In this document: one piece after another, positions 31,342 to 51,495 of the stretch
Layout of the letters: every line of letters begins with the position of its first letter
Position numbering within the stretch: position 1 is the stretch's first letter
Source of the DNA: Gelidibacter salicanalis
GTDB taxonomy: Bacteria; Bacteroidota; Bacteroidia; Flavobacteriales; Flavobacteriaceae
NCBI RefSeq assembly: GCF_016469035.1
Contig: NZ_JAEHJZ010000049.1
Span: 1-64,000 of the forward strand
DNA: 64,000 bases
Direction: 5' to 3'
Made by a program: the position numbers and the translations under genes
Notes under the pieces: model-generated
Seen by the model: only the letters and a program-made list of their open reading frames with translations
Told to the model about the DNA's origin: nothing
The model's database searches: none

Positions 31342-31376
31342 CTTAAGATCTTCTTTAGAATTGACATGTATTTTTA
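31342..31376 (+). promoter_or_regulatory. PmrA-like box and -7 element, RND operon copy
   Basis: Half-sites CTTAAGA (31342) and CTTTAGAATTG (31353) are 11 bp apart; the -7 box TATTTTTA starts at 31369, exactly 16 bp after the second half-site. It lies 24 bp before the TTG start of the TolC-like gene. It is one of six matching sites in the window. Confidence 0.75.
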
Positions 31377-31399
31377 TGACTTAATTCAAATCTGTTGTT

Positions 31400-32680
31400 T
31401 TGAAGCCTATCTTCTTTTTGTTTTGTATAAGTCTTGCGGTAACCATAAGCTTTGCCCAACATAATGCCAAACTTGATACTTTTATAAAGTTGGCAAAAAT
31501 GAACGCGCCCAATTTAATTGAAAATGGCAATTTTTTAAAAATTGGCAATTTGCAAGACCGGCTTATAACGGCCCAAAACAATTCGTTTCAGGTCAATGCA
31601 ACTTCAGAGATTCTCTTAGCCCCATATTTTGATAATAATGGAAAGATTATAGACATCTCTACAGCTCCTTCAAGTACAGCTTTTGGATACGATGTGGGCA
31701 TCACCAATGGTGGTTTATATTCCGCACAAATCAATGTGACTAAAAATCTGTTCAATCAGGCCATAACTGGTAATTTATTGTTTCAAAATAAAATTCTGAA
31801 CAATACCATCTCGCTTTCTTCCGAAGAAATCTCCCATACTATTGTAAAGAATATTACGGATACCTATGTCATGGCGTATCAGTTTCAGTTGCAGGAGGCC
31901 TTCACAAACCAAATTCTTAAAGACCTTGAAAATAGGTTACAGGTTGTAGAATTATTGGTGAAGCGAGCTGTTTTAATGGAGAGTGATTATTTATTGTTGC
32001 AATTGGATATTGATGGTAAAAAATTAGAACTGCTACAAATCCAAAACAATCTAGGGGTAGCCATAAATCAGTTGTTCACTTTGAGTGGTGTCCCCGCCGA
32101 AACTATAGACCAGTTAGAACCACCCTTGATTAATGATAATCAAAGTCCTTCACAATTTTTCTACGAGAAAAAATTTGAGAATGACAGATTGCAAATAGTT
32201 GGAAATCAGCGCGTCTTTGAAAATCAATATAAACCACAAGTTTCTGCTTATGCCAATACAGGTTTGAATGCAATAGAGATTCCAAATATCTATCGAAAGT
32301 TTGGGGTAAGTGCCGGGCTGCGATTGACAATTCCGATTTATGATGGACAACAGCGCAAGTATAACGCGCAACAAAGTCTTTTGAAAGAAGAAAGTTTAGA
32401 ATTTTACAGGGAGAATTCAAAAGTACAGATTGACAATAACCTCAAAAGTATCGAAGAACAAATTCAAGCATTGGAAATCTCCCTGCAATTGCTTGACAAA
32501 CAATTGAAAAAACAAGAAAACATTTTGGAAATCTATAAAGGGAAATTGGTTCAAGGCCAAGTATCTATCGTGGATTACTTAAATGTCATTCAGAATTACA
32601 AACTAAATGGGTATACAAAACTTCAAATGCAAACCAATTTTTGGTTATTACAAAATCAATATAACTTTATAAACTGGTAA
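31400..32680 (+). CDS. TolC-family outer-membrane efflux factor (third RND system)
   Basis: A 426-residue outer-membrane factor. The N-terminus is a clean signal peptide (MKPIFFLFCISLAVTISFAQ), which requires initiation at TTG 31400 because no ATG is available; the start therefore rests on the signal peptide. Two OEP repeats with long helices follow. It is the first gene of an operon with an adaptor and an RND permease, controlled by the composite promoter just upstream. It differs clearly from the two OMF sequences of the metal island, so substrates may be drugs, lipids or peptides rather than metals. Confidence 0.82.
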   Translation: MKPIFFLFCISLAVTISFAQHNAKLDTFIKLAKMNAPNLIENGNFLKIGNLQDRLITAQNNSFQVNATSEILLAPYFDNNGKIIDISTAPSSTAFGYDVGITNGGLYSAQINVTKNLFNQAITGNLLFQNKILNNTISLSSEEISHTIVKNITDTYVMAYQFQLQEAFTNQILKDLENRLQVVELLVKRAVLMESDYLLLQLDIDGKKLELLQIQNNLGVAINQLFTLSGVPAETIDQLEPPLINDNQSPSQFFYEKKFENDRLQIVGNQRVFENQYKPQVSAYANTGLNAIEIPNIYRKFGVSAGLRLTIPIYDGQQRKYNAQQSLLKEESLEFYRENSKVQIDNNLKSIEEQIQALEISLQLLDKQLKKQENILEIYKGKLVQGQVSIVDYLNVIQNYKLNGYTKLQMQTNFWLLQNQYNFINW

Positions 32681-32686
32681 TTGATT

Positions 32687-33607
32687 ATGAGCATTCAATA
32701 CTTTAAATATATAGCCACTTTATTGATAGTTGTAAATTTATCTGCCTGTAAGAAAAAGGTGGACACGGTTTCAGAAAAAAAAGCACCAATCGTTGTAACC
32801 GCTGTTAAAGTTCAGCAAAATGAGATCAAGGAATACCTCACGTTTAATGGCGTTACCCAATACCAAAAAAAGGAAAATATACGCTCGAATGTAACGGGCT
32901 ATATTTCTTGGATGAACTATAAGATTGGTGATAACATTCGAAGCGGACAGACTTTTGCATCCGTTAGAACGAAAGAACAGGACGCTCTTAAAGAAGCTGT
33001 CAAAATAGATAGCTCGTTATCAAAGTTTGTGAATCCCATAACTATTAGAAGTAATGCTGCTGGCGTTTTTACAGGGCTTAATGTGACTGTAAATGATTAT
33101 GTAGCCGAGGGGGATGTATTGGCAACTGTTGTACAACCAAAATCATTAGTGATACAAGTGAATGTGCCTTACGAATATGAAGATGCTATCCAAATAGGGA
33201 CATCCTGCGAAATTATGTTGCAAAATGGTGAAATGCTTACTGCAAAAGTAACGGGAACGTTACCAACCATTGACCCTGTCGCGCAATCGCAGGTTTTTTT
33301 AATTGCGCTGCCGGACGCAAATCTTCCTGAAAATTTGAATGTTCAAGTGCGGACTATTTATAAAGAAGATGCAACCGCAATGACCATTCCCAAAAAAGCT
33401 TTACAAACCAATGAATTGTTGTCTGAATTTTGGGTCATGAAAGTGATACATGATTCCCTGGCATTAAAGCAGAAAGTCGTACCACTGCTTAAAAATGATA
33501 CTCTGGTTCAAGTAAAATCTCAGGGTCTCAAAATAAATGACTTGGTCATTACTGAAGGTAGTTATCAAATGCAGGATTCAACCATTGTAAGCATTATAAA
33601 ACAATGA
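32687..33607 (+). CDS. efflux RND periplasmic adaptor lipoprotein (third system)
   Basis: A 306-residue adaptor, short for its class. The lipobox is VNLSAC (Cys21 from the ATG at 32687; a TTG two codons earlier touches the previous stop codon). The lipoyl halves are SNVTGYISWMNYKIGDNI and SNAAGVFTGLNVTVNDYV, with almost no helical hairpin between them, which means it must contact its outer-membrane factor differently from hairpin-bearing adaptors. It overlaps the permease gene by 4 bp (ATGA). Confidence 0.8.
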   Translation: MSIQYFKYIATLLIVVNLSACKKKVDTVSEKKAPIVVTAVKVQQNEIKEYLTFNGVTQYQKKENIRSNVTGYISWMNYKIGDNIRSGQTFASVRTKEQDALKEAVKIDSSLSKFVNPITIRSNAAGVFTGLNVTVNDYVAEGDVLATVVQPKSLVIQVNVPYEYEDAIQIGTSCEIMLQNGEMLTAKVTGTLPTIDPVAQSQVFLIALPDANLPENLNVQVRTIYKEDATAMTIPKKALQTNELLSEFWVMKVIHDSLALKQKVVPLLKNDTLVQVKSQGLKINDLVITEGSYQMQDSTIVSIIKQ

Positions 33608-36603
33608 AAAATCTGCACTCGAATTACAAATTCCCACTACTTGCCATTGGTATTCTCATACTCATTGGTGGATTTTTTACCTATCAGAATCTAAAAACAG
33701 GCTTGTTTCCGGATATTACATTTCCAAAAATTAAAGTGATTGCTGATGCAGGACAGCAACCTGTGGACAAAATGATGACCACGGTAACGATTCCGTTGGA
33801 AAACATCATTCGCAGAACGGAAGGATTGCAGTACATACGCAGTACAACGTCCCGCGGGAGTTGCGAGATTTCTGTTTTCTTGGACTGGAACATGGATATC
33901 AATACCGCAAAAGCACAAATAGAATCCTTCATCAATCAATCACAAGGAAGTATTCTGCCAAATACGGTGTTTTTCGTAGAAAAAATGAATCCGTCCATCT
34001 TGCCCGTTATGGGCTATTCTTTGGAAGGTGAGGGGATGTCCCAAGTGGATTTAAAGAAAATTGCAAAATATCAGGTCAAACCCTATTTGGCGGCGACACC
34101 TGGTGTTTCTGATATTGCCGTAATAGGGGGCAAGGACAAAGAATATCAGGTGGTTCTAAAACCGGATATGATCAAATCCCTCGGAATTTCTATTTCAACG
34201 ATTCAAAGTGCGATTATCAATTCTAATGTATTGCAGTCCAATGGGTACATCACAGATTACAATAGAATGTATCTCACCCTTACTGATAATGCGGTGGATG
34301 ATATTGAAGATTTACAAAACCTCGTCATTATAAATAGTCCCAACCGATTGATTCGTTTAAGGGACATTGCTGACATTGAAGTCAAAGAAGTAAAGGAATA
34401 TGTAAAAATCCTTGCCAACGGTAAGAATGTGCCAATAATCGCGGTGGTAAAGCAACCGAATGCGAACCTTATTGAAGTCAATAACACAATAGAACAGAAA
34501 GTTGCCGAACTCTCAAACATGCTCCCTAAAGGCGTCGTGTTGAAACCCTATTACAAACAGGCTGATTTTGTAAACACGAGCATTGCAAGTATTAAAGACG
34601 TTCTATGGATCGGTTTGGTATTGGCGCTTTTGGTGGTTATATTTTTCCTGCGCTCGTTTTCAGCAAGTATGGTCGTGCTATTTACCATTCCTATATCCTT
34701 ATCCTTGACACTAATTGTTCTTGACATTATAGGCTACACTTTTAATATTATGTCCCTAGGTGCAGTTGCTGCGGCCATTGGGTTGATGATAGATGATGTG
34801 GTCATCATCATAGAACAAATCCATAAAATTAGGGAAGAACATCCAGAAGAATCAATGGGTTGGATAGCCCACGAAGCGATAACGCATTTGTTTCCTGCAA
34901 TGATTGGTTCATCCTTGAGTACGCTTGTTATTTTCATCCCTTTTGTGTTGATGACCGGTGTGGCAGGAGCTTATTTTCAGGTCATGGCATTTAGTATGAT
35001 AATTGCTTTATCAGCATCCTTTTTGGTCACTTGGTTAATTGTTCCTGTATTGTCGATTTTATTCACAAGGGAGAAATCGGTCATACGTAAGCACGAGCCA
35101 AAAACGAAATGGATTCATCGGGTTTTGGGTAAACCAATTATTGGGATTTCCTTTTTGTTGGTTTGTGTGGTCATCCTTATCATTATACCTTCCAAATTGC
35201 CTTCTGGGTTTTTACCAGAAATGGATGAAGGAAGTATTGTTTTGGATTATAACAGCCCCTCAGGCACGACATTGGAAGAGACTGACAGGATGCTGCAAAT
35301 CGTAAACGGGGTTTTGGATTCCCAACCTGAAGTAGAAGCTTATTCCGCACGATTGGGAACACAAATGGGGTTTTTTATTACAGAACCCAACCGAGGCGAT
35401 TATTTAATCAAACTCAAAAACAAGCGAAACAGGACTACAACCGAGGTTTCTGACGACATAAGAAAACGCATAGAAGAAAAATTACCACAATTGACCATTG
35501 ATTTTGGACAGGTGATTGGCGATATGTTGGGTGATTTGATGAGTTCCGTTCAGCCCATAGAAATTAAAGTATTTGGAAACGACATCCACCAGCTGGAGGA
35601 ATTGTCTAAAAAAATTGCTGCCGAAGTTGAAACAGTTCAAGGTACAGCAGATGTTAACGATGGAATTATTGTTGCAGGGCCAAGTTTATCCATTATTCCA
35701 AATGTCCCCGTACTCGCACAATTGGGAATGACCGTTGCCGATTTCCAACTGCAGTTACAAACGCAAATTGAAGGAACAGTTGTAAGTTCGATGATTGATA
35801 AAGAACAAATAGTTGATATTCGACTTATTTATCCTGATGCGCTTAAAACGTCGGTTTCAGATATTAGAAATACCACTATTTTATTGCCAAATGGTTCCAG
35901 TGTCCCCATCAATACAATTGCAACTGTTGAAATGGGCAAGGGCGTGGCTGAAAATAATAGAGAAAATCAAAAATCGATGGGTGTTATTACGGCCCGACTC
36001 AACAATCGTGATTTGGGCTCAACCCTAAAGGATATTCAAAACCATTTGAGCAAAAACCTGTCCCTTCCAGCGGGTTATTCTATTGCATATGGAGGTGCGT
36101 ACAAAGAGCAACAGAAGGCTTTTAAAGAATTAATGATGATTTTAATTTCGGCGATACTGCTGGTGTTTATCGTGATATTGTTTCTTTTTAGAAAGATAAA
36201 GATTGCCTTGGCCATTATTGTCATTGCCGTTTTGGGAGTTGCTGGAAGTTTGTTGAGTTTATACGTAACTGGAACACCCTTGAATGTTGGTAGCTATACA
36301 GGAATTATTATGATTGTAGGAATCATTGGAGAGAACTCCATTTTTACCTATCGACAGTATCAGGAGAGTGATGAATCCCTATTGCATATTGAAAAAATCG
36401 AATATGCCATCGCAGCACGATTGCGTCCTAAATTAATGACTGCGTTTGCGGACATAATGGCATTGGCGCCATTGGCTTTAGGCATTGGAGCAGGGGCACA
36501 ATTACATCAGCCTTTGGCCATTGCTGTGATTGGGGGATTGGTGTTTGCATTACCACTATTACTTGTGGTGTTGCCTACGATTCTGAAACTCATAAAGGAA
36601 TAA
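33604..36603 (+). CDS. RND-family efflux permease (third system)
   Basis: A 999-residue RND pump with the usual two sets of helices and periplasmic domains. The TM4 motif is AIGLMIDDVVIIIEQIH, containing the acids needed for proton relay but differing from the two CzcA/CusA pumps in the window. Other conserved pieces are FLPEMDEGSIVLDY and SPSGTTLEETDRM-like sequence after TM7. It is translationally coupled to the adaptor. Being driven by the same box as the lipid A and two-component genes, it is more plausibly an envelope-stress or antimicrobial exporter than a metal pump, but that is inference. Confidence 0.85.
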   Translation: MKNLHSNYKFPLLAIGILILIGGFFTYQNLKTGLFPDITFPKIKVIADAGQQPVDKMMTTVTIPLENIIRRTEGLQYIRSTTSRGSCEISVFLDWNMDINTAKAQIESFINQSQGSILPNTVFFVEKMNPSILPVMGYSLEGEGMSQVDLKKIAKYQVKPYLAATPGVSDIAVIGGKDKEYQVVLKPDMIKSLGISISTIQSAIINSNVLQSNGYITDYNRMYLTLTDNAVDDIEDLQNLVIINSPNRLIRLRDIADIEVKEVKEYVKILANGKNVPIIAVVKQPNANLIEVNNTIEQKVAELSNMLPKGVVLKPYYKQADFVNTSIASIKDVLWIGLVLALLVVIFFLRSFSASMVVLFTIPISLSLTLIVLDIIGYTFNIMSLGAVAAAIGLMIDDVVIIIEQIHKIREEHPEESMGWIAHEAITHLFPAMIGSSLSTLVIFIPFVLMTGVAGAYFQVMAFSMIIALSASFLVTWLIVPVLSILFTREKSVIRKHEPKTKWIHRVLGKPIIGISFLLVCVVILIIIPSKLPSGFLPEMDEGSIVLDYNSPSGTTLEETDRMLQIVNGVLDSQPEVEAYSARLGTQMGFFITEPNRGDYLIKLKNKRNRTTTEVSDDIRKRIEEKLPQLTIDFGQVIGDMLGDLMSSVQPIEIKVFGNDIHQLEELSKKIAAEVETVQGTADVNDGIIVAGPSLSIIPNVPVLAQLGMTVADFQLQLQTQIEGTVVSSMIDKEQIVDIRLIYPDALKTSVSDIRNTTILLPNGSSVPINTIATVEMGKGVAENNRENQKSMGVITARLNNRDLGSTLKDIQNHLSKNLSLPAGYSIAYGGAYKEQQKAFKELMMILISAILLVFIVILFLFRKIKIALAIIVIAVLGVAGSLLSLYVTGTPLNVGSYTGIIMIVGIIGENSIFTYRQYQESDESLLHIEKIEYAIAARLRPKLMTAFADIMALAPLALGIGAGAQLHQPLAIAVIGGLVFALPLLLVVLPTILKLIKE

Positions 36604-38992: not shown

Positions 38993-39027
38993 CTTTAATA
39001 TTCCTTTAGAATCACATAGTAATTTTA
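38993..39027 (+). promoter_or_regulatory. PmrA-like box and -7 element, two-component operon copy
   Basis: Half-sites CTTTAATATTC (38993) and CTTTAGAATCA (39004), 11 bp apart, then TAATTTTA at 39020, 16 bp after the second half-site. The site lies 20 bp before the response regulator ATG, consistent with autoregulation. Apart from this, the 377-bp gap 38670-39046 shows nothing I can assign. Confidence 0.75.
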
Positions 39028-39046: not shown

Positions 39047-39721
39047 ATGAAATACTTAATAGCCGAAGACGAACTCGATTTACAACAATCAATCGTTACA
39101 TATTTACAGCGTGACGGTCATGTTTGTGAAGTTGCTTCTGACTTTCACGAAGCATCGGAAAAAGTCCATATGTATGATTATGATCTCATAATTTTAGACA
39201 TCAACTTGATTTCTGGAAGCGGTATAGATATTTTGAAAATATTGAGGAAAGAAAATAAAAGGTCTGGTGTCATCATTATCTCGGCTAACAATTCACTCAA
39301 TGATAAGTTAGAAGGGCTTGACCTGGGTGCTGATGATTATATTACAAAACCGTTTCATCTGGCGGAACTCAACTCAAGGATAACAGCAGTTTTAAGAAGG
39401 GGAAAGTTTGGCGGCGATGAGAGGATTGAATTTAATGAAATAAGTATCGATACCAAATCTAGAACTGCTTACATAGACGAAAAGTCAATGGCTTTGACAA
39501 AAAAAGAATACGATTTGTTGGTGTTCTTTATTTCGAATAAAGGACGTGTACTTTCAAAAGAGATTATCGCCGAACATCTTTGGGGAGACCATAGTGATTT
39601 GCTGGATAATTTTGATTTTATTTACGTGCACATCAATAATTTACGAAAAAAACTGACCTCTGCAGGGGCCAAATACATCAAGACAGCTTATGGTAGTGGC
39701 TATAAATTTATAGAAGATTAG
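39047..39721 (+). CDS. OmpR/PmrA-family response regulator
   Basis: A 224-residue response regulator. The receiver domain (about residues 1-120) has the phosphoacceptor Asp51 in LIILDINL, the conserved Lys in DYITKPFHLAEL and an acidic pair near the N-terminus (EDE). The C-terminal winged helix is of the OmpR type (LTKKEYDLLVFFISNKGRVLSK and HINNLRKKL, ending GSGYKFIED). OmpR-family members bind direct repeats with 11-bp periodicity, exactly the pattern found upstream of this gene and five other units. The kinase gene follows after 3 bp. Confidence 0.93.
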   Translation: MKYLIAEDELDLQQSIVTYLQRDGHVCEVASDFHEASEKVHMYDYDLIILDINLISGSGIDILKILRKENKRSGVIIISANNSLNDKLEGLDLGADDYITKPFHLAELNSRITAVLRRGKFGGDERIEFNEISIDTKSRTAYIDEKSMALTKKEYDLLVFFISNKGRVLSKEIIAEHLWGDHSDLLDNFDFIYVHINNLRKKLTSAGAKYIKTAYGSGYKFIED

Positions 39722-39724
39722 AAA

Positions 39725-40975
39725 GTGATAAAAAAAACGAGCCTTATAAAAAAAACGTCTAAAGCCTTCCTTTTGACAGGATTTGTTTTGACAATATTAA
39801 GTTCCATCGCGTTATATTTTTATACTAAAAATTTGTTGCAAAATGAAGTTGAGGAAGAATTGTATTCTACTGAAGCAAGAGTGGAAGCAGCACTTAATTC
39901 CAACAGGCAGTTATTTTCATTGCCACCTGTTGTCGAGGTCAAATCGGTTCAAAACTTATTGCCCAAAGTCCTAAAAGACACCATAATTTATGACCCTTCC
40001 CAAGATGAAATGGAGCTTTTTCGCGAGCTTTCGACTTATAAAGAGCTAAACAATGAATATTACCATATTACGGTTAGAACATTAGTCGTAGAATCAGAAG
40101 ATATTTTAATGGCCCTTGTTTTCTCGAACATAACCATATTTGTGATTGCATTTGTTTTTCTGTTTTATTTCAACACCACAAGAAATTTACGACTCTGGAA
40201 GCCTTTCTTCGATAATTTGGAACAGATGAAGACATTTTCATTAACAAAGAAAGACCCAATCACTCTGTCAGATAGTGAAATAATCGAATTTTCAGAATTG
40301 AAAGACCAAATCATGTTATTTACCAATAAAGTAAGGGATGATTATGAAAGTTTAAAACAGTTCACAGAAGATGTTTCCCACGAAATGCAAACACCTTTGG
40401 CAATCATTCAAGCAAAAATTGATAATATTATTAATGAACATGAGATAAACGATAAGCAGTTTGAGCAAGTAACTTCAATTCAAAAGGACATTCAGCGTTT
40501 AAAGCAATTGAATAAAAGAATCACTACGTTGACAAAAATTGACAATAATCAATTCACGAATATTGAAACTATAAATCTGACGGACTTGATTGATGAAAAG
40601 ATTGAAAGTTTTAAAGAGCTTCAATTTGTAAACCTCGTTCATAATTCAAAAAAGAAACTTTTTGTTTCCATGGATGTTTATCTTGCGGATATGTTGATTA
40701 ATAATCTTCTTTCCAATGCAATCAAACATAGTAAGAACAAAGAGGAGATTACTCTTGTTACAATGGACAATAGGCTTGTCATTTCTAATTTTGGTGAAGA
40801 AGCTTTGGTGCATCCTGAAAATCTGTTTTTGAGATTTTACAGGGAATCAAGAGCAAACCAATCTACAGGTTTGGGACTTGCAATCGTCAAGAAAATCTGT
40901 GATTTATATGGCTTTAAAATCTCCTATCAATTTGAAGTGGACCATCATGTCTTTTCTATAGATTTCTCTAAATAA
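39725..40975 (+). CDS. sensor histidine kinase
   Basis: A 416-residue kinase starting with GTG. It has two membrane helices (about residues 12-32 and 130-155) enclosing a periplasmic sensor loop of about 95 residues. A short linker leads to the dimerisation domain with phosphoacceptor His219 in EDVSHEMQTPLAI, and the ATP-binding domain has LLSNAIKHSKNKE (N box) and STGLGLAIVKKICDLYG (G2 box). It lacks a clear G1 DxGxG motif: the corresponding place reads VISNFGEEA. The periplasmic loop carries several acidic residues but no motif of a known sensor. Its partner is the regulator encoded directly upstream. Confidence 0.9.
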   Translation: MIKKTSLIKKTSKAFLLTGFVLTILSSIALYFYTKNLLQNEVEEELYSTEARVEAALNSNRQLFSLPPVVEVKSVQNLLPKVLKDTIIYDPSQDEMELFRELSTYKELNNEYYHITVRTLVVESEDILMALVFSNITIFVIAFVFLFYFNTTRNLRLWKPFFDNLEQMKTFSLTKKDPITLSDSEIIEFSELKDQIMLFTNKVRDDYESLKQFTEDVSHEMQTPLAIIQAKIDNIINEHEINDKQFEQVTSIQKDIQRLKQLNKRITTLTKIDNNQFTNIETINLTDLIDEKIESFKELQFVNLVHNSKKKLFVSMDVYLADMLINNLLSNAIKHSKNKEEITLVTMDNRLVISNFGEEALVHPENLFLRFYRESRANQSTGLGLAIVKKICDLYGFKISYQFEVDHHVFSIDFSK

Positions 40976-41069
40976 ATTCAGTCGTTTTAACATTATGGGG
41001 TGTATACTTTATATCCATTTAGATTTCAGTTCTATTTCTATAAAAAGGAAGAATAAACAGGGCTCAATG

Positions 41070-41440
41070 GCGTAGTAGGTTTGTCTTTTGGACTGGGAGC
41101 GTTATCAAAATGTAAGTAAGATACGCCTACAGATTATGGAAGTTCTTTAGTACATCCGAAATTGATTCCGAGTTTTAACCTTAATTACAGAACGAAAAAG
41201 TTGAAGCGCATGTTGCAGGATTGTATTACTGAAACGAAATATTCCGCAAATGGAAGAATTGGCAGGTTTTTCAGCTGATTTTGGATTGAAGAAATCATCT
41301 AGGATAAAAAAGGGGAAATAGCATTGTCGGCAAGTGACTTATTTAAAAATTTGGTTTAAGACAACCCATTATGGGAGAAAAGTTTACAGCGCTCTACGAA
41401 AACTATTATGAAACGCAGATTATATAATTTGGAATGAAGT
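41070..41440 (+). pseudogene. relic of a TonB-receptor-like outer-membrane beta-barrel protein
   Basis: The 590-bp gap 40976-41564 has no intact gene, but pieces in shifting frames recall the C-terminal barrel of outer-membrane proteins: GVVGLSFGLGAL, SFNLNYRTKKLK, ALSASDLFKN and FTALYENYYETQII followed by FGMKCGF, the last resembling the terminal beta-strands. Several stops and frameshifts separate them. It is beyond repair and probably the end of a deleted receptor gene. Confidence 0.45.
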
Positions 41441-42898: not shown

Positions 42899-44526
42899 GA
42901 AATACCATAGAAAAATATCCATACTTAACTATTACTGTTCTTTGGTTATTTGTGTACCTATCACATCTGGGTCTGCTTTACCCCAATATTATGGAGGCAC
43001 GTAATTTTATTACAGCCCGAGAAATGCTAACAGATGGTAATTGGCTACTCACCACAATGGATGGTTTGCCACGTTATGAAAAACCCCCATTGCCTACATG
43101 GATAGCAGCAATCTTTGGAAGTGTGTTTGGAATTGAGAATATAGCTGCACTTCGTTTTCCTTCTGCATTAATTACCTTAATATTATTGTTTATGTTCTTT
43201 AGGCTTTCGCGAAAGCTTACTCAAAACAAGCTATATGCCTTAATTTCGACTCTGATATTGGGTACTTCTTTCTTTATAATTTTCGCTGGACGCAATGGTA
43301 CTTGGGACATTTTTACACATTCATTTATGTTGTGTGGTATATATTATCTATTTCAATTTTTTCAAAATCAATATAAAAGTTACACCTACTCGTTGCTCGC
43401 AGGTCTTTTTATTGGGCTTTCATTTATGAGCAAAGGTCCTGTTTCACATTATGCACTACTGCTTCCTTTTTTGATATCTTATGGTATTGTTTATAAATTC
43501 GATAGCTTTAAAAAGCAATGGTTACCCTTGTTTATAATGCTCATCATTGTAGGATTTATTTCTTCGTGGTGGGCCTATTATATCTATGTAAATGATGTTG
43601 CGGATGCAACTCGCATTGCCGAGAAAGAATCTAGTAGATGGCTTGGTTATGAAGTAAAACCATTTTATTACTACTGGAGCTTTTTTACGCAATCTGGTGT
43701 ATGGACAATTCCTGCCTTTGTCTCATTAATTTATCCATATTTGAAAAAACGTGTAACACACCTTAAACCCTACAGGTTTGCATTATTATGGACGATAAGC
43801 TCTGTAATACTACTATCCCTGATTCCTACAAAAAAATCCCGGTATTTATTACCCGTACTTATTCCTCTGGCACTAACAGTTGGTTTTTACTCAGAGTATC
43901 TATTTACAGCGTTTAAAACAAAGATTTCTAAATGGGAAAAACTGCCCGTTTATTTTAATTATGGTCTTATAGGTACCATAGGGGTTATATTTCCTCTTGG
44001 AGCATATTTGTATTTTGGAGAAAAATTGGAAGGTTATTATTTGTGGTATGGTCTCTTATCTCTTGCTCTATTTGCCATAGGGGTATTTTTATGGATTCAC
44101 TTACTAAAACGTAATTTTCCATTTGTTTTTTATGGAACCGTTGCTTTCATAATGTTTGTCATTAATCTTGGTTTTCCTTTAGTAAACGCAATTTTGGGAA
44201 ATCCATCGTACAATGCAATTTCAAAATTATCTGATAGCCCAATTCCGGTTTATGTTTTAGATGGACTTGCACCAGAGCTGGTTTGGAATTACGGTAAGGT
44301 TTCAGTACGTAAAACAAAAGACGAATTACTCAGCGAAGATCTCGAAGATACTTTTGGCGTGCTGACATATTCTGCTGAAATGAAGACTGAACTTTCTTTT
44401 TTGAATAATAATTATCTGGTTAAATATAAGGAAACATTTGACCTGAACCCTGTAGATAGTACAAAACGAGGTTATAAGAACAGACTGAAGGCAGATTATT
44501 ATATTGTTACAAAACAAGAAAAATAG
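42895..44526 (+). CDS. ArnT-like lipid A glycosyltransferase (PMT fold)
   Basis: A 543-residue integral membrane transferase beginning at the ATG that overlaps the LAB_N stop codon; the open frame extends further upstream but inside the previous gene. The first periplasmic loop holds LYPNIMEARNFITAREML and the acidic/RYEKPPLPTW region, which is characteristic of ArnT and other GT83 enzymes (family: GEARYAEIARE.. YFEKPPL). About 12 helices and a C-terminal periplasmic domain follow. It should transfer a sugar from undecaprenyl phosphate to lipid A, altering surface charge. Confidence 0.87.
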   Translation: MRNTIEKYPYLTITVLWLFVYLSHLGLLYPNIMEARNFITAREMLTDGNWLLTTMDGLPRYEKPPLPTWIAAIFGSVFGIENIAALRFPSALITLILLFMFFRLSRKLTQNKLYALISTLILGTSFFIIFAGRNGTWDIFTHSFMLCGIYYLFQFFQNQYKSYTYSLLAGLFIGLSFMSKGPVSHYALLLPFLISYGIVYKFDSFKKQWLPLFIMLIIVGFISSWWAYYIYVNDVADATRIAEKESSRWLGYEVKPFYYYWSFFTQSGVWTIPAFVSLIYPYLKKRVTHLKPYRFALLWTISSVILLSLIPTKKSRYLLPVLIPLALTVGFYSEYLFTAFKTKISKWEKLPVYFNYGLIGTIGVIFPLGAYLYFGEKLEGYYLWYGLLSLALFAIGVFLWIHLLKRNFPFVFYGTVAFIMFVINLGFPLVNAILGNPSYNAISKLSDSPIPVYVLDGLAPELVWNYGKVSVRKTKDELLSEDLEDTFGVLTYSAEMKTELSFLNNNYLVKYKETFDLNPVDSTKRGYKNRLKADYYIVTKQEK

Positions 44527-44600: not shown

Positions 44601-44646
44601 CTTTAGAATCTCTCTAATATTTCTTTAGAATTGGGCACTACATTTA
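44601..44646 (+). promoter_or_regulatory. PmrA-like box with three half-sites and -7 element, PepSY gene copy
   Basis: Three half-sites at exact 11-bp steps: CTTTAGAATCT (44601), CTCTAATATTT (44612) and CTTTAGAATTG (44623). TACATTTA starts at 44639, 16 bp after the last. The extra upstream half-site could bind a further regulator protomer. The ATG is 28 bp downstream. Confidence 0.8.
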
Positions 44647-44674: not shown

Positions 44675-45139
44675 ATGAAGACCTTAAAAATTATTTTAGG
44701 TACATTTTTAACTTGTGCCATTTTTGCCTTCTCTTCAGGAGGAGATCAAGCCCCACAAAAGGTTAAAGATGCCTTTGCTAAGAAATTCCCTACTGCTAAG
44801 AATGTAAAATGGGATAAAGAGAACGCTACAGAATGGGAAGCTGAATTTAAAATGAATAAAACAGAATATTCAGCTAATTTTCTTGAAGACGGTACCTGGA
44901 AAGAAACGGAGCATGAGATTGATGAAAGGGAGATTCCCCAGAATGTGAAATCGTCATTAATGACAGAATATTCTGGATATAAAATCAAGGAATCTGAACT
45001 GTCAGAAACTAAAGACGGAATGCTCTATGAGTTTGAGATTAAAAAAGGAGAACGTATGATGGAAATTTCCGTTGATTCGACTGGCAACATTGTAAAAAAG
45101 GAAGTCATAAAAGAAAATGGTGAAGGAGATAAAGATTAG
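44675..45139 (+). CDS. PepSY-like (BLIP-type) periplasmic protein
   Basis: A 154-residue exported protein with a signal peptide (ending AIFAFSSGG) and two copies of the short PepSY-like/DUF2874 repeat: VKDAFAKKFPTAKNVKWDKE..WEAEFKMNKTEYSANF and VKSSLMTEYSGYKIKESEL..YEFEIKKGERMMEISV (quoted in pieces). Such proteins bind ligands or partner proteins in the periplasm; their function is not known. Close association with two-component systems is common in Bacteroidota. Here it has its own strong box and a terminator, so it should be made in quantity when the system is on. Confidence 0.82.
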   Translation: MKTLKIILGTFLTCAIFAFSSGGDQAPQKVKDAFAKKFPTAKNVKWDKENATEWEAEFKMNKTEYSANFLEDGTWKETEHEIDEREIPQNVKSSLMTEYSGYKIKESELSETKDGMLYEFEIKKGERMMEISVDSTGNIVKKEVIKENGEGDKD

Positions 45140-45228: not shown

Positions 45229-45263
45229 CTTTAATTTTTCTTTAGAATTGGAGGCTACTTTTA
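45229..45263 (+). promoter_or_regulatory. PmrA-like box and -7 element, LtaS-like/DagK operon copy
   Basis: Half-sites CTTTAATTTTT (45229) and CTTTAGAATTG (45240), 11 bp apart; TACTTTTA starts at 45256, 16 bp after the second. This is the best-conserved copy. The LtaS-like start codon lies 31 bp downstream. Confidence 0.8.
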
Positions 45264-45294: not shown

Positions 45295-47274
45295 ATGTCA
45301 TTTAAACTATTTCCTTCACGTTTTGCGTTGCTTAAAGCCTTTATTGGCTTATTTCTGGTGTTATCTTTTTTGGTAAGATTAACTTTTTTGATTTGGAATT
45401 TTTCAGAAGTTGATATGGGATTTTTTGCTTTGGGCAATACGTTCTTTATTGGTTTTTTATTTGATATCGCAACGATTTCCTTCTTTGCAATTCCTTACCT
45501 AATTTATTTGGTGATTTTTCCAAAACGCTTTTATGGTAATGTTGTAGATAAAATAATCACATATTTTGGATTTTCAATTGGCGTGCTCATTCTGTTCTTT
45601 TCATTCTTTGGAGAAATTACTTTTTGGGATGAGTTTGAACGACGTTTTAATTTTATTGCTGTCGATTATCTGATTTATACTTATGAAGTCGTAAAGAACA
45701 TCAATGAATCCTATCCTTTGCCAATACTGATTTCTGGAATGATCATACTTGTATTGGGCAGTATTCTGTTGGTCTATAAAATGGACTATTTCCGTAGGAC
45801 ATTTAGTAGTGAAACCACCTTTAGGCCGAAATTAGTTGCAGCCATTCCTTGGGTTATTCTTGTAGTTATTTGCAGTATATTCCTTACGAACAAACAAGCT
45901 GATTTTTCGGAAAACCGCTATAATAATGAACTGGCAAAATCTGGAATCTATTCGTTTTTTTCAGCGTTCAGAAATAATGAACTACCCTATTCTGAATTTT
46001 ATAAAACCATTCCTCAAGAAGAAGCCTACACTACAGTAAAAGAAAGTTATTCGGACTCAAATACAACTTTCGTGAATTCAAGGGAGAATTCCATTTACAG
46101 GTATATGAAAAATTCTGATAGTTTGAGCAATCCAGTAAGACCAAACGTTATATTCATATGTATTGAAAGTTTGAGTGGCGATTTTTTAAAGGCATTTGGA
46201 AATGAAGATAGCATCACGCCCACGCTGGACTCTTTGGTAAATAACAGCTTGTTTTTCGAAAACCTTTATGCCACGGGAACGCGAACAGTTAGAGGAATGG
46301 AGGCAATAACATTATCTATTCCTCCGACACCAGGGAGAAGTATCGTAAAGCGTAAGAATAATCAAGGCTTGTTCACGATTGGAGAGGTTTTTAAACAGCA
46401 AGGTTATGAACGTAATTTCTTCTATGGGGGTGATGGCTATTTTGATAATATGAATACCTATTTTGGAGGAAATGGCTTCAATATTATTGATAGGGGGCGT
46501 GGGTTTTTATTGGATAAAAGTATTACTGCAACACGTACTAACATTGAGGATGATGAAGTGACATTTGAAAATGCTTGGGGGGTTTGTGATATGGATATCT
46601 ACAATAAGGTGTTGAAGGAAGCTGATAAAGCGCATAACTTGGGAAAACCATTCTTTGATTTTGTGATGACCACTTCAAACCACAAGCCTTATACCTATCC
46701 TGAAGGTGATATCGACATTCCTTCCGGAACGGGCCGAAATGGTGCTGTAAAATATACCGATTATGCCATTGGAGAATTCATAAAAAAAGCAAAACAAAAA
46801 CCGTGGTTTGAAAATACGGTCTTCGTCATCATGAGCGACCATTGCGCAAGTAGCGCAGGACGTTGGGAATTGGATGTAAAAAACTACCATATTCCTGCCT
46901 TAATATTCAATTTACCCAATAAGGCACCAGAGAAAATCAATAGGCTTTCTTCGCAAATAGATGTATTTCCAACGTTGTTTTCTCTATTGAAATGGGATTA
47001 CAAATCCAATCTATTAGGTAAAAATATTCTTGAAATGACCCCCAAAGATGAGAGAGCCTTTATTGGAAATTACAGAAAGTTGGGATATCTAAAAGACAAC
47101 AAAGTTCTTATTTTGGACGAACAGGCAAATGCCAATTTTTACTCATGGAACCCAACCACTAATAGTTTGAAGTCAATTCCATCTGACCAGACATTTGAGG
47201 ATAATGGTATTTCCTTTTATCAAGTTGCAGACGATTTATATAGGAATGGCGGTTTAAAATTGAGCGATGAATAA
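45295..47274 (+). CDS. LtaS/MdoB-like membrane phosphotransferase (sulfatase superfamily)
   Basis: A 659-residue protein with five N-terminal membrane helices and a periplasmic alkaline-phosphatase/sulfatase-fold domain (from about residue 270). The nucleophile lies in the motif ATGTRTVRGMEA (Thr329 or Thr331). Metal ligands are suggested by VIFICIESLSGD near the domain start and by VIMSDHCASS. Family members transfer phosphoglycerol or phosphoethanolamine from a phospholipid to a surface acceptor. Gram-negative homologues modify periplasmic glucans or lipid A, and the by-product of phosphatidylglycerol-dependent transfer is diacylglycerol. The last 8 bp overlap a diacylglycerol kinase gene, matching that chemistry. 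Confidence 0.87.
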   Translation: MSFKLFPSRFALLKAFIGLFLVLSFLVRLTFLIWNFSEVDMGFFALGNTFFIGFLFDIATISFFAIPYLIYLVIFPKRFYGNVVDKIITYFGFSIGVLILFFSFFGEITFWDEFERRFNFIAVDYLIYTYEVVKNINESYPLPILISGMIILVLGSILLVYKMDYFRRTFSSETTFRPKLVAAIPWVILVVICSIFLTNKQADFSENRYNNELAKSGIYSFFSAFRNNELPYSEFYKTIPQEEAYTTVKESYSDSNTTFVNSRENSIYRYMKNSDSLSNPVRPNVIFICIESLSGDFLKAFGNEDSITPTLDSLVNNSLFFENLYATGTRTVRGMEAITLSIPPTPGRSIVKRKNNQGLFTIGEVFKQQGYERNFFYGGDGYFDNMNTYFGGNGFNIIDRGRGFLLDKSITATRTNIEDDEVTFENAWGVCDMDIYNKVLKEADKAHNLGKPFFDFVMTTSNHKPYTYPEGDIDIPSGTGRNGAVKYTDYAIGEFIKKAKQKPWFENTVFVIMSDHCASSAGRWELDVKNYHIPALIFNLPNKAPEKINRLSSQIDVFPTLFSLLKWDYKSNLLGKNILEMTPKDERAFIGNYRKLGYLKDNKVLILDEQANANFYSWNPTTNSLKSIPSDQTFEDNGISFYQVADDLYRNGGLKLSDE

Positions 47275-48160
47275 AATAATTGACATTCATTTTATCATCA
47301 ATCCCATTGCGGGTTCGGGCAATACGATCCTTTCCGAAAGCTTTTTGGAATTTTTTTTTCCCAGAAAGAGGTATAAGATTAAAGTGAAGCCTTCCCAGTA
47401 TAAAGGAAATTCAATACTACTAACTCAAAGATCCATTCAAGAAGGTGCTGATATAATCGTTGCCTGTGGTGGCGACGGCACAGTAAATGAAGTGGCTTCG
47501 ACGTTGATTGGAAGTGATATTCCCCTTGGTATTATTCCGATTGGCTCTGGAAATGGATTGGCTTCAAATTTAAAAATCCCAAAAAACATTGAAGCTGCCA
47601 TTGCGGCCATAAAAACTTCAAAGATTGAAAAAATCGATGTAGGATGTCTGAACGAGCACTATTTTTTTAGCAATACTGGTTTTGGTTTTGATGCAAGTGT
47701 CATCAAATACTACGAAGCTTCTGAGAAACGGACACTTTTACGATATCTCAAAGCTTCCATTAAGTCATTTCAACACTATCATAAACAGAATGAGGTTCGA
47801 ATGACGGTTGATGGTAATCCAGAAATCGTAAATCCGTTTCTAATATTTATTTCCAACTCCAATGAACTGGGATATAATGTGAGTTTAACCCCAAAAGCAT
47901 CCTTGCAGGATGGGTTGTTAGATGTCGTTGTTGTTCCTCAAATAAGTAAATTAAAGATGATGTTATTTGGTGTTTTGGTATTCTTTAATAAACACTCACT
48001 ACTAAAAGAAGTGAACTGTTTTCAAACAGCGAAAATGACTATCTCAAGAGGTCATGGTGATTATTTTCAATCGCAACTTGATGGAGAGTTTTTTAAAATT
48101 GAAGAAAAAACAGTCCAGATTTCTATTAAACCGAAGTCTTTGCTTGTCATTGTCTTATAG
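47267..48160 (+). CDS. diacylglycerol/lipid kinase (DGK catalytic family)
   Basis: A 297-residue soluble lipid kinase related to DgkB/YegS. The ATP-binding signature is complete: INPIAGSGN near the N-terminus, VACGGDGTVNEVA and PIGSGNGLASNL. It phosphorylates diacylglycerol or a related lipid to phosphatidate in the cytoplasm, returning it to phospholipid synthesis. The start codon lies inside the LtaS-like gene (8-bp overlap), so the two are translationally coupled: one probably releases diacylglycerol and the other recycles it. Confidence 0.88.
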   Translation: MNKIIDIHFIINPIAGSGNTILSESFLEFFFPRKRYKIKVKPSQYKGNSILLTQRSIQEGADIIVACGGDGTVNEVASTLIGSDIPLGIIPIGSGNGLASNLKIPKNIEAAIAAIKTSKIEKIDVGCLNEHYFFSNTGFGFDASVIKYYEASEKRTLLRYLKASIKSFQHYHKQNEVRMTVDGNPEIVNPFLIFISNSNELGYNVSLTPKASLQDGLLDVVVVPQISKLKMMLFGVLVFFNKHSLLKEVNCFQTAKMTISRGHGDYFQSQLDGEFFKIEEKTVQISIKPKSLLVIVL

Positions 48161-48182: not shown

Positions 48183-48217
48183 CTTTAATTTTTCTTTAGA
48201 TTTCAAGCCTATATTTG
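48183..48217 (+). promoter_or_regulatory. PmrA-like box and -7 element, phosphatase cluster copy
   Basis: Half-sites CTTTAATTTTT (48183) and CTTTAGATTTC (48194), 11 bp apart; TATATTTG, a perfect -7 box, starts at 48210, again 16 bp after the second half-site. It lies 73 bp before the degenerate PAP2 gene. Confidence 0.78.
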
Positions 48218-48289: not shown

Positions 48290-48847
48290 ATGAGTAAACA
48301 TTTTTTTTTTACCGATGACAGCATTACTTCCTTTTTTAAATTTCAAAAAGTAAGCGCGCAAAAAACGAGTATTGAAACTGCTGCAAATATAGGATTGATT
48401 GAGGTTCCTGCAGCCGCACATTCCTTTACATTGTCTAAAGGGAATGGTCAGCAAACATTCCAGTTTACCAAAGGTTTTCTACTCAACCAATCAATTATCT
48501 ATAGCCTAAAAGTAGGGATTAACAACCCACTATCTTTTAACCACGGCGCTAATGCATGTCCTGCCGGACATACTTCTACATTACATTTTTTCAATCTGCA
48601 TGATTCATCTACAAACGGTATGGTTTTAAATATAGTATTTGCTATTAATGCCTTTTCAGGGTTTACGACTTTTAGTAATATAGATGCCCATAAACATGAC
48701 GGTAAGGAAATTTTGGAAGGTTGGGTCATTGGATGGGAAGCACTCCGCTCTTTAGAGCAGAGTATCAGTAAGAACACACAGAACTTGCTTTTAATAATAA
48801 GCACTATTATTTACTCAATTTTAAGTACAAATTTTAAATATAACTAA
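48290..48847 (+). CDS. degenerate PAP2-like protein lacking catalytic residues
   Basis: A 185-residue intact frame that can be aligned by eye with the PAP2 phosphatase encoded at 50289. There, KYAINKPRP...FPSGHT...RIEGIDDRHDGWDILGG holds the three catalytic motifs; here the matching places read KVGINNPLS, ACPAGHTST and FSNIDAHKHDGKEILEG. The K/R-P pair, the PSGH serine, the motif-3 Arg and the Asp are replaced; the His residues remain. It lacks a signal peptide and most hydrophobic helices. It is either a decaying gene with its frame still intact or a protein reused as a non-catalytic partner. It has its own regulator box. Confidence 0.6.
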   Translation: MSKHFFFTDDSITSFFKFQKVSAQKTSIETAANIGLIEVPAAAHSFTLSKGNGQQTFQFTKGFLLNQSIIYSLKVGINNPLSFNHGANACPAGHTSTLHFFNLHDSSTNGMVLNIVFAINAFSGFTTFSNIDAHKHDGKEILEGWVIGWEALRSLEQSISKNTQNLLLIISTIIYSILSTNFKYN

Positions 48848-48849
48848 AT

Positions 48850-50217
48850 ATGGCGAACGGAAGAAGAACCTTTATTAAAAACACGTTTTTAACCTCAATA
48901 GGACTGTTGGCATTAACGCGCTGTCGTTTTGATAATTCATTTGGACAAAGTGCAAATTCCAATAATCTAATTCTAGACCTGAAGGAATATCTGGATTTAC
49001 CTGAGGGATTTACTTATGAGATTATTTCAAAATCTGGAGATCAAATGAATGATGGTTTCTACGTTCCTGGTCGTCCGGATGGAATGGGAACATTTGAAGG
49101 TAAAAATACAGATGAAGTAATCATAGTGAGAAATCACGAAAATAGTCCAGAACCTTTTTCGAATAGTCCATACGGAATTGATAATGAATTGTTGGATACT
49201 ATAGACACCAGCAGTTTATATGATTCTGGAAATATGATTATGCCTGGTCTGGGGGGGACTACAACACTTATCTATAATGAAATCACTAGAAAGTTGGAGC
49301 ATCAACATTTAAGTCTGGCGGGAACTTACCGCAATTGTGCAGGTGGAATTACGCCATGGAAAAGTTGGTTGAGTTGTGAAGAAGATGTGACAAGAATTGG
49401 TAATAATATTGTAAAAGATCACGGTTTTGTTTTTGAAATCAGCGCTCTGGAAAAGGGCTTATCTGATCCTAAACCAATATTAGGTATGGGTAGATTTCAA
49501 CATGAAGCTGTGGCTGTTGATCCTATTTCAGGTATAGTTTACCTGACTGAAGATAGACATGACGGACTATTTTATAGATATGTTCCTAATGTTCAAGAAG
49601 AATTGCATCGAGGTGGAAAACTTCAAGTTTTAGCTGTCAAAAGCAGGAAAGCATTGGATACAAGAAATTGGGATGAACCCGTAATAAAAGTTAATGATAT
49701 TTTGGATGTAGAATGGCTTGATATAGACAACGTTTTATCACCTGATGATGATTTAAGATATCGCGGTTTTAATAGTGGAGCAGCCCGTTTTGCAAGAGGT
49801 GAAGGTATTTGGTTTGGCAAGAAAGAGCTCTATTTTGCGTGTACTAATGGAGGTGATGCACATTTAGGCCAGATTTTTAGATACAGATTGTCGCCCGATG
49901 AAGGAAGGGAGTCCCAAAAATCAATTTCTGGTAAATTGGAACTTTTTGTGGAATCCGAAGATAGGAATGTGTTGCATATGTGCGACAACTTGACAATCAC
50001 GCCTAATGGTAATCTACTGGTATGCGAAGACAATGGGGAATTGAATAGAATTTTATTAATAAATCAAAATGGTTCCATAAGTGTCTTTGCTTGTAACAAA
50101 AGCTCAAGTTCTGAATTTGCAGGCGTAGTTTTTTCTCCCTCGGGCAATACGATATTTGTAAATATTCAAGAAAATGGTGATACGTTGGCAATCACGGGTC
50201 CGTGTCGCACCCTATAA
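48850..50217 (+). CDS. PhoX-like (DUF839) Tat-exported phosphatase
   Basis: A 455-residue protein with a twin-arginine-type signal (GRRTFIKNTFLTS). The PhoX/DUF839 beta-propeller signatures are GGTTTLIYNE, LAGTYRNCAGGITPWKSWLSCEED and LTEDRHDGLFYRYVP (given in part). PhoX enzymes are calcium/iron-dependent alkaline phosphatases acting on phosphate esters in the periplasm. It starts 2 bp after the previous stop, so it belongs to the same transcript. In this setting, removal of phosphate from surface lipids or from released head groups is conceivable; the substrate is not known. Confidence 0.85.
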   Translation: MANGRRTFIKNTFLTSIGLLALTRCRFDNSFGQSANSNNLILDLKEYLDLPEGFTYEIISKSGDQMNDGFYVPGRPDGMGTFEGKNTDEVIIVRNHENSPEPFSNSPYGIDNELLDTIDTSSLYDSGNMIMPGLGGTTTLIYNEITRKLEHQHLSLAGTYRNCAGGITPWKSWLSCEEDVTRIGNNIVKDHGFVFEISALEKGLSDPKPILGMGRFQHEAVAVDPISGIVYLTEDRHDGLFYRYVPNVQEELHRGGKLQVLAVKSRKALDTRNWDEPVIKVNDILDVEWLDIDNVLSPDDDLRYRGFNSGAARFARGEGIWFGKKELYFACTNGGDAHLGQIFRYRLSPDEGRESQKSISGKLELFVESEDRNVLHMCDNLTITPNGNLLVCEDNGELNRILLINQNGSISVFACNKSSSSEFAGVVFSPSGNTIFVNIQENGDTLAITGPCRTL

Positions 50218-50288
50218 GGAAATAAAAATCTATTTGGCTGAAACCTAAATTTTAAGTTCTGCTCTTTCCAGTTAAATTATAATTTTAA

Positions 50289-50858
50289 ATGAAAACACTA
50301 TTTTGTCTATTCATCTGCATCGTTCCAATTATTGGTTTCTCACAAGAAATTCATACTCCTTTAGAAATTAGAAGAGAAACAACCTATCAGAATTTTGGAG
50401 ATTATGCACAACATGCTCCTGCACTAACAGCATTGATTGTAATCTTCGCTAAAAAAGATAAAATGGGTTTTTGGCAATTTACAAAATCTTATGGAGCTAC
50501 ATTAGGGCTAACCTATGTTTTGAAATATGCCATCAATAAACCTAGACCAGATGGAAGTACAGACGGCAAAGCGTTCCCTTCAGGCCATACCGCAGTCTCC
50601 TTTTCAGGAGCATCCTTTTTGCAACGTCGCTATGGTTGGGAATATGGAATCCCTGCATATGCTGTTGCTGGATTAGTGGCATATACGCGAATTGAAGGTA
50701 TAGATGATAGACATGATGGGTGGGATATTCTTGGAGGGATAGTAGTGGGAGTGGGAAGTACCTACTTATTTACCACACCTTATCAAAAGGAACATCTTGA
50801 ATTGTCCTTTAAAAGTGGCGGAGGTGATTATCTAATTGGTTTTAAATATAAATTTTAA
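50289..50858 (+). CDS. PAP2-family lipid phosphatase
   Basis: A 189-residue phosphatase with a signal-like N-terminal helix and all three PAP2 motifs intact: KYAINKPRP, FPSGHTAVSF and RIEGIDDRHDGWD. It should act on phosphatidate, lipid pyrophosphates or lipid A phosphates at the periplasmic face. Position in a cluster with an LtaS-like transferase, lipid kinase and ArnT-like enzyme suggests undecaprenyl pyrophosphate or lipid A dephosphorylation. The HD-domain gene starts 1 bp after its stop codon. Confidence 0.9.
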   Translation: MKTLFCLFICIVPIIGFSQEIHTPLEIRRETTYQNFGDYAQHAPALTALIVIFAKKDKMGFWQFTKSYGATLGLTYVLKYAINKPRPDGSTDGKAFPSGHTAVSFSGASFLQRRYGWEYGIPAYAVAGLVAYTRIEGIDDRHDGWDILGGIVVGVGSTYLFTTPYQKEHLELSFKSGGGDYLIGFKYKF

Positions 50859-50859
50859 A

Positions 50860-51495
50860 ATGGAAACAATAGAACTTCAAAACGAACAGATTATGAGTGC
50901 TTTGGATGTAAACAATGTGAAAGATTATTGTCTTGAGATTTTACGAAAAAGTAGGTGCAAAGCCTTACCGTTTCATGGGATTAAACATACCATAGAAGTT
51001 TTTGAGAACGTGATGTTAATGGGTGGTTATGAAAAACTAAATGAAGCAGAACAGGAGATATTGAAAATTGCGGCATTGTTCCATGATACAGGAATGTCTG
51101 AAACTTATATAGGTCATGAAAGTATAAGTGCTAATAATGCTAAATCATATTTACACGAAACCAACTATCCAAAGAAAAAGACGGAACACATCCTAAAGTG
51201 CATTCAAGCAACTAAAATGCCTCAAGATCCAAAAACACTTCTGCAATGTATTATCTGTGATGCCGATTTGTTTCATCTGGCAAGTACGAACTACATTTTT
51301 AAAAACGACCTGTTAAGAACTGAATGGGCAAATTATATGGATTTGGTATTTACGGATGAAGAATGGTATCAACTGAATTTGGAATTTCTGATGGAGCATA
51401 CATATCATACGGATTTTGGTAAAACCGTTCTGAAAGAAGGAAAGCAAAAAAATATTGCGCTTATGAAACGATTGAAGAATCAGGCTAACCAATAA
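50860..51495 (+). CDS. HD-domain phosphohydrolase
   Basis: A 211-residue cytoplasmic protein. The HD superfamily metal ligands are visible as GIKHTIEV (His), AALFHDTGMS (His-Asp) and ICDADLFHL (distal Asp). I use the ATG just after the PAP2 stop codon; the longer frame runs into that gene. HD proteins hydrolyse nucleotides, cyclic nucleotides or phosphate esters; the substrate here is unknown. It is the last gene of the regulated phosphatase cluster. Confidence 0.8.
   Translation: METIELQNEQIMSALDVNNVKDYCLEILRKSRCKALPFHGIKHTIEVFENVMLMGGYEKLNEAEQEILKIAALFHDTGMSETYIGHESISANNAKSYLHETNYPKKKTEHILKCIQATKMPQDPKTLLQCIICDADLFHLASTNYIFKNDLLRTEWANYMDLVFTDEEWYQLNLEFLMEHTYHTDFGKTVLKEGKQKNIALMKRLKNQANQ

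Follow-up and report, generated by a model that had tools for sequence, protein, structure and literature searches.

Six transcription units in a 64,000-nucleotide stretch of Gelidibacter salicanalis DNA (NCBI RefSeq assembly GCF_016469035.1, contig NZ_JAEHJZ010000049.1, positions 1 to 64,000; hereafter the window) are headed by the same composite promoter element, made up of two half-sites and a -7 box. From sequence comparison, we consider it very likely that these elements serve as promoters that depend on an activator, and that together they define a single regulon, which is controlled by the two-component pair encoded at 39047-40975 and includes the genes of this pair. A preliminary description of the window had already proposed such a regulon, and this proposal is well supported by a site in front of the regulator's own gene, by the placement of the sites at the heads of operons, by the co-occurrence of element and regulator in other genomes and by the covariation of recognition helix and half-site. 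The gene content suggests a role in envelope remodelling.

All six sites that had been described could be located, and the 11-bp period of the half-sites as well as the 16-bp offset to the -7 box were found in 6/6. Half-site 2 reads CTTTAGA at 31353, 39004, 41522, 44623, 45240 and 48194 (6/6), and the -7 box starts exactly 16 bp after its first base, at 31369, 39020, 41538, 44639, 45256 and 48210. The sequence TAnnTTTR given for the -7 box is present in five of the six, but the box at 41538 reads TATTATTG. Similarly, the consensus CTTTAAT given for half-site 1, 11 bp upstream, describes four sites well (CTTTAAT at 38993, 45229 and 48183, CTCTAAT at 44612), but neither the variant CTTAAGA at 31342 nor the poor half-site at 41511. 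The complete elements, all on the plus strand, extend from 31342 to 31376 (before an RND operon), from 38993 to 39027 (the presumed autoregulatory promoter, whose half-site 2 starts 43 bp upstream of the regulator start), from 41511 to 41545 (before an ArnC-like gene; recognised by matrix and by direct reading), from 44612 to 44646 (before a PepSY_like gene), from 45229 to 45263 (before an LtaS/MdoB-like gene) and from 48183 to 48217 (before a decaying PAP2 copy). The letters between the conserved positions vary among the six sites, with half-site 2, spacing and -7 box retained, and in 6/6 sites the 30 bp preceding the -7 box contain no TTTG. In a scan of 127,930 window positions, the full matrix gave scores of 34.9-45.8 for the six sites; the next window position reached 16.6, and 20 random sequences of 128 kb from a first-order Markov model yielded 16.2 at most. 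With leave-one-out matrices, each site was still among the top 6 positions. These scores rule out that the sites are chance matches.

The element is also rare in the genome as a whole (5.16 Mb in 682 contigs; G000, with contigs labelled C). Half-site 2 combined with the -7 box has seven exact matches, of which six are the window sites; the seventh (C1:15645) is inside an open reading frame (ORF) and has no first half-site. With one mismatch, 37 matches were obtained and the reversed control gave 19; a weak match taken singly is therefore of little significance. When three mismatches at most are allowed, the full composite is found 21 times vs nine times in the control, and among these 21 are the six window sites, a strong site before a PAP2 gene on contig C262, and four on contig C89 beside a paralogue of the regulator, of which three have CTAAAG as second half-site. 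Another match, C423:95725, is within an ORF of the other strand and was discarded. A genome-wide scan had been suggested as a check on the regulon, with hundreds of unrelated promoters matched as the outcome that would speak against it; this outcome is rejected by the counts. The further site on C262 is counted as part of the regulon.

Conservation of the sites in related genomes, named as a further check in the preliminary description, was indeed found. The comparative set consisted of 20 stretches, to which seven named loci out of 80 returned by a search were added. Of the stretches, 19 are surroundings of regulator genes in other genomes, one genome being represented twice, and the remaining one is the C262 locus. 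A matrix built from the six window sites only was applied to the genes of 15 close loci with a cut-off score of 12. It revealed a site upstream of all 13 intact close regulator orthologues (13/13), with half-site 2 at 41-45 bp before the called start in nine and at 12-28 bp in four. None of the six other regulator rows, i.e. a distant paralogue in L142 (one), those in L153 (three; the close regulator carries a stop) and the C262 fragments (two), reached this score. A site also precedes most PepSY-like (8/9), PAP2 (9/12), LtaS (4/5) and outer-membrane efflux protein (OEP; 4/5) genes of the relatives, and further 2/3 DUF347, 2/4 epimerase-like, 1/2 PhoX and 1/7 ArnT genes. No site was detected before genes for the histidine kinase (0/15), membrane-fusion protein (0/5), RND permease (0/5), DagK (0/6), LAB_N protein (0/3) and HD-domain protein (0/3). 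Other genes had a site in 10 of 137 cases, six of these at the position of a TonB-dependent receptor. Nonlabens antarcticus (L006), for example, has sites before the regulator, a DUF347 protein, a PepSY-like protein and an ArnC operon.

The occurrence of the element tracks the regulator across the family. A sample of 149 genomes was divided by whether they encode a regulator of 56% identity or more, a boundary that was placed after a gap in the identities had been seen. A relaxed composite pattern was found in 15 of 16 genomes that have such a regulator, with 45 hits, and in 25 of 133 that do not, with 27 hits (Fisher p 3.6e-9). Altogether, 40 genomes had 72 hits, and the reversed control pattern gave 17 across all 149 genomes (2 and 15 in the two groups). 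Sixteen genomes with regulators of 45-54% identity contained two hits.

The best link between regulator and boxes, short of a binding test, appears to be the covariation of the recognition helix with the half-sites, a rule that was spotted by eye first and counted afterwards. Position 4 of the half-site (CTTN) tends to track the helix residue before NLRKK across paralogues. With Asn (VHINN), as in the clade of the window regulator, the base is A or T in 87/90 half-sites; with Gly (THMGN, genome G119) it is A or T in 10/10 and with Ala (THLAN, the C89 paralogue) A in 4/4. Lys in THIKN goes along with C in 4/4, and a box of L153 among the Lys rows may belong to the broken close regulator of that locus. 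Arg (THMRN) is found at loci with small RNAs, described below, where half-site 1 has C in 43/44 boxes; near the regulators of the same genus C is present in 17/19 half-sites 1 and 7/19 half-sites 2. The helix could be read in 17 of 20 regulator loci of this genus and is THMRN in all 17. The loss of C together with the change from Arg to Gly in G119 looks like one independent change. The residue aligns with His195 of BasR/PmrA; a passage of PMC3973317 lists this histidine and His193 among those to which specific DNA recognition is attributed.

The regulator (39047-39721, plus strand) is an OmpR/PhoB-type response regulator with a receiver and a winged-helix Trans_reg_C domain (PF00072 and PF00486, both above cut-off), the recognition helix VHINNLRKK, and BasR/PmrA (8jo2, E 5e-39) as best match in the PDB. 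The sensor histidine kinase (39725-40975, plus strand) belongs to the PorY family (NF052314, 401.7 bits, cut-off 350), the only family above cut-off among the 25 models listed for it. It has an acidic EVEEE after the first hydrophobic segment. An E-x-E-E patch at this place is common to most close kinases of the alignment and is missing in clade B, the clade with the small RNAs. It was noted in a comparison with PmrB, which has a metal-binding ExxE motif in its periplasmic loop. With acidic residues next to the first transmembrane segment, a cation or a cationic peptide is a plausible signal, although the patch in itself does not show that one is sensed.

All genes behind the promoters are on the plus strand. 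Promoter 1 is followed by genes for an OEP (31400-32680, PF02321), an HlyD/CusB-type membrane-fusion protein (32681-33607, PF13437 and PF16576) and an RND permease (33604-36603). The permease matches a metal model (TIGR00914, 468.9 bits) and a drug model (NF033617, 468.7 bits) equally well, both below cut-off, and a regular-expression search for metal-type RND motifs gave no match, which has no bearing on the permease type. Promoter 3 heads genes for an ArnC-like glycosyltransferase (41565-42284, PF00535; 99.7 bits with the ArnC model, cut-off 529), a LAB_N membrane protein (42281-42898, PF07578) and an ArnT-like glycosyltransferase (42763-44526, PF13231; 75.5 bits with the ArnT model, cut-off 567), the true start of which is probably downstream of the TTG at 42763. 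Promoter 4 precedes a PepSY_like protein (44675-45139, PF11396). Behind promoter 5 are an LtaS/MdoB-like membrane phosphotransferase (45295-47274, PF00884), whose closest PDB entries are VP1736 (3lxq, E 3e-74) and then the LTA synthase 2w8d (E 5e-12), and a YegS/DgkB-type diacylglycerol kinase (47267-48160, PF00781 and PF19279). The unit behind promoter 6 had been called a lipid phosphatase cluster. Genes for a PhoX-family phosphatase (48850-50217, PF05787), a PAP2 phosphatase (50289-50858; 39 bits with the LpxE model, below the cut-off of 177) and an HD-domain phosphohydrolase (50836-51495, PF01966) are indeed present, but the first gene is a decaying copy. This ORF (48290-48847) has no Pfam match and is read as a decaying PAP2 copy because the alignment of this stretch with intact PAP2 proteins from relatives runs over two frames (up to 50% identity to that of L141).

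A weak box (41006-41040, plus strand, half-site 2 at 41017, score 12.6) was dropped as an intact seventh promoter and is treated as decayed; the gene behind it is a relic of a TonB-dependent receptor (41039-41448, plus strand; tblastn with receptors of relatives, best E 8e-25) that is spread over several frames and contains stops. Several relatives have a receptor in the gap behind the kinase gene (checked with Pfam in L141, L147, L145 and L150), with a box 39-46 bp upstream. The relic is probably a decayed seventh member of the regulon.

How would the system work? The kinase would sense an envelope signal and phosphorylate the regulator, and two regulator molecules would then occupy the 11-bp direct repeat (about CTTTARAWT-N2-CTTTARAWT) in head-to-tail orientation. 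The consensus of Bacteroidota sigma-A promoters includes a TTTG element at -33. As the 30 bp before the -7 box lack a TTTG, the contact at -33 is most likely provided by the regulator instead: the repeat would take the place of the missing element, and the bound regulator would recruit sigma-A RNA polymerase to the TAnnTTTR box. The sigma-A box TAnnTTTG of Flavobacterium psychrophilum is at -12 to -5 according to a passage of PMC9723704, which places the predicted starts 28 bp after the start of half-site 2 and the repeat at about -39 to -19. The predicted outputs are the regulator operon itself, the RND pump, the lipid glycosylation operon of ArnC/LAB_N/ArnT type, the PepSY-like protein and the lipid phosphatases, together with the LtaS-like phosphotransferase and the diacylglycerol kinase, which would recycle the by-product of the former. 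In combination, they would change the charge of the envelope and export toxic compounds.

Other explanations have to be weighed against such an activator-driven regulon. The regulator could instead repress these promoters, and a repeat over -39 to -19 could block RNA polymerase; we regard this as improbable, since the absence of TTTG at the -33 position in 6/6 sites is expected of activator-dependent promoters, and BqsR activates from a similar position with its downstream pentamer overlapping the -35 region (as described in a passage of PMC4682146). It is even less probable that an alternative sigma factor recognises the element as its promoter, or that an unrelated factor binds there, with the two-component pair as a mere target. 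A sigma factor that has an upstream element of its own could account for the fixed spacing to the -7 box, but a head-to-tail 11-bp repeat is the geometry of the OmpR family, base 4 tends to change with the recognition helix, the occurrence follows the regulator gene, and the -7 box is of the sigma-A type known from F. psychrophilum (PMC9723704). The least probable alternative is that promoter copies spread by duplication within this gene island and that only some of them are functional. The decay at 41017-41448 and 48290-48847 and the multicopy state of PAP2 and PepSY-like genes in some islands would fit, but the letters between the conserved positions differ while half-site 2, spacing and -7 box are kept, and other species have the sites before different sets of genes.

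Some observations also weigh against the regulon, which is nevertheless the reading we prefer. Half-site 1 of promoter 3 is ATTTATA; ArnC genes of relatives have a site in only 2/4 cases, and the LtaS gene of L152 has none. The regulator site of L148 passes the cut-off narrowly (12.8), and that of L151 is found by the matrix but not by the strict box pattern. In the 133 genomes without a close regulator, the pattern still averages 0.20 hits per genome, which is somewhat more than with the reversed control (15 hits in 133 genomes). The helix rule is incomplete as well: with Arg at the small-RNA loci, half-site 2 has C in only 24/44 boxes (T in 19, A in one), and Lys in AHIKN is accompanied by two C, one A and one T; moreover, the clades in this comparison are related, so that independent changes are few.

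The likeness to the PmrA box noted in the preliminary description holds for the predicted mechanism and for the 11-bp period (6/6), but the regulator is not a PmrA orthologue. It scores 164.2 bits with the NCBIfam PmrA model (NF007928, cut-off 330) and 133.3 bits with the QseB model (NF007663, cut-off 345), and the kinase 60.5 bits with the PmrB model (NF008025, cut-off 314). Like PmrA (BasR)/PmrB of enterobacteria, the window system has an OmpR-family regulator with ArnT- and ArnC-like genes among its putative targets, and it shares the 11-bp head-to-tail half-sites with the PmrA box of Klebsiella pneumoniae (CTTAAT-N5-CCTAAG in a passage of PMC3973317). Unlike in PmrA/PmrB, the core is mostly CTTTARA, the kinase is of the PorY family, the promoter is of the -7 type, and there is no complete arn operon, with promoter 3 heading only the ArnC-like, LAB_N and ArnT-like genes, of which ArnC and ArnT remain below the cut-offs. 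Compared with YTTAAK-N5-YTTAAK, CTTAAG is present only in the first half-site at 31342, and half-site 2 has CTTTAG in 6/6. BqsR/BqsS of Pseudomonas aeruginosa is similar in that BqsR is an activator with an 11-bp-period direct repeat near -35 (TTAAG-N6-TTAAG, the downstream copy overlapping -35; passage of PMC4682146), and differs in core and promoter type; the Fe(II) signal is a feature of BqsR/BqsS only. By analogy, the predicted mechanism is that of PmrA and BqsR. With PorY/PorX of Bacteroidota the window system shares a kinase above the PorY cut-off, but the partner of this kinase is the adjacent OmpR-type DNA-binding regulator, and no Pfam family of the type IX secretion system (T9SS) is present among the box-bearing operons of the window. 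PAP2, lipid kinase and phosphotransferase genes are also targets of ColRS-type envelope regulons. In Proteobacteria, envelope-defence regulons that regulate themselves and have a readable operator are familiar; a comparable regulon of Bacteroidota was not found in open-access full texts among the matches listed. If our interpretation is correct, the promoter can serve as a marker of the response, a set of lipid A and efflux genes become candidates for testing in Bacteroidota, and the paralogues form a natural series in which the evolution of operator specificity can be studied. Arrays of small RNAs would not have been expected as an output of such a system.

The relationships of the island differ from those of its host. 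GyrB of this genome is 97% identical to that of the genus mate G013 and 90% to that of G097, whereas the window regulator is 83% identical to that of G013 and 92% to that of G097, and the RND permease is 93% identical in G097. The island is a mosaic: the kinase is only 73% identical to that of G097 and 80% to that of G125, and LtaS and DagK are absent from the G097 stretch. A second locus on C262 (L160, 7903-10175) is collinear with the island of G013, with flanks that are 84-88% identical. There, the regulator gene is broken, its remnant being 86% identical to the G013 regulator and 75% to that of the window; DagK is shortened, the box of the PAP2 gene is still strong (score 32), and neither a kinase nor an LtaS gene was found in the 20-kb stretch. 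The simplest reading of these sequences is that the window island was acquired horizontally and that the native copy on C262 is decaying, its last target perhaps captured by the newcomer.

The C89 paralogue of the regulator (51% identical) has three boxes with a CTAAAG second half-site within 8 kb (L249, half-site 2 at 17022 on the minus, 17124 on the plus and 10264 on the minus strand). They precede a methyltransferase-domain gene, a DUF218 gene and a small lipoprotein-like ORF; the box next to a BacA/UppP gene points away from it, toward the lipoprotein-like ORF. For the C507 paralogue and its counterpart in G013, no strong box was found in 20 kb.

A related clade (clade B; regulator 56-58% identical) appears, from its sequences, to drive tandem small RNAs from the same type of promoter. 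CTTCAG-type boxes are located between the kinase gene and gyrB, and no convincing ORF is present behind them in L001, L154 and L156; each box looks to be followed by a small RNA of about 210 nt with an intrinsic terminator (L154 9424-9946, minus strand; L156 9260-10024, minus strand; L001 9170-9667, plus strand; also L192-L219). A signature search detected copies in 2 of the 149 family genomes, where a third match (G097) looks unrelated. Within one genus, 18 of 22 genomes have copies, and a single match in another family is unrelated. A box with a score above 14 is present within 330 bp upstream of 25 of the 27 distinct matches, the exceptions being L208 and the unrelated L214; the 99% quantile of random windows is 22.7, a value inflated by the regulon loci in the pool. 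The median length of the 25 predicted RNAs is 211 nt, with the 3' end clearly mispicked in at least three (both long copies of L192 and L200 and one of L212). Compared with mononucleotide shuffles, a weaker control than dinucleotide shuffles, their folding z has a median of -5.2; one copy gave -5.6 against 200 dinucleotide shuffles. The motif GAGGGGA is unpaired with 0.65 vs 0.34 overall and exceeds the mean of its own copy in 24/25. RNAalifold returned no consensus structure (0 pairs) for a six-copy alignment in which a misalignment by MAFFT was suspected by eye, and Rfam had no family at threshold in L001, L154, L156, L155 and L147. A clade-B small RNA recognisable by its signature was rejected for G. 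salicanalis itself (0 signature matches), and Rfam gave no match at the gathering threshold in the window.

It is tempting to combine these observations into a family of self-contained regulon islands that move horizontally in Flavobacteriaceae, an idea that we consider quite possible but put forward tentatively. Regulator and promoters would travel together, and an incoming island would replace the decaying native one and might capture a leftover target. Specificity would largely be readable from one helix residue: position 4 would be A/T where this residue is Asn, Gly or Ala, and C where it is Arg or Lys, most clearly so in half-site 1. The clade with about 210-nt tandem small RNAs carrying a GAGGGGA loop would be the version with RNA as output.

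Some minor observations may be added. A possible structured leader RNA is located between box and gene in L147 (12487-12713), L006 (13151-13383) and L141 (18273-18100, minus strand), with a stem whose ends resemble CCTGT and TCAGGCA and a z of -3.2 for L147. The window region 15215-36603 encodes three RND-type permeases (15215, 22313, the latter fused to an OEP domain, and 33604) and a cadmium-family P-type ATPase within 22 kb. A gene for an ISAzo13-type transposase (8190-9404) is located left of the efflux clusters, and a dispersed repeat of about 170 bp is present in the window (9586-9761), in L160 (7529-7702) and in L144 (4370-4533), with copies that are 75-81% identical.

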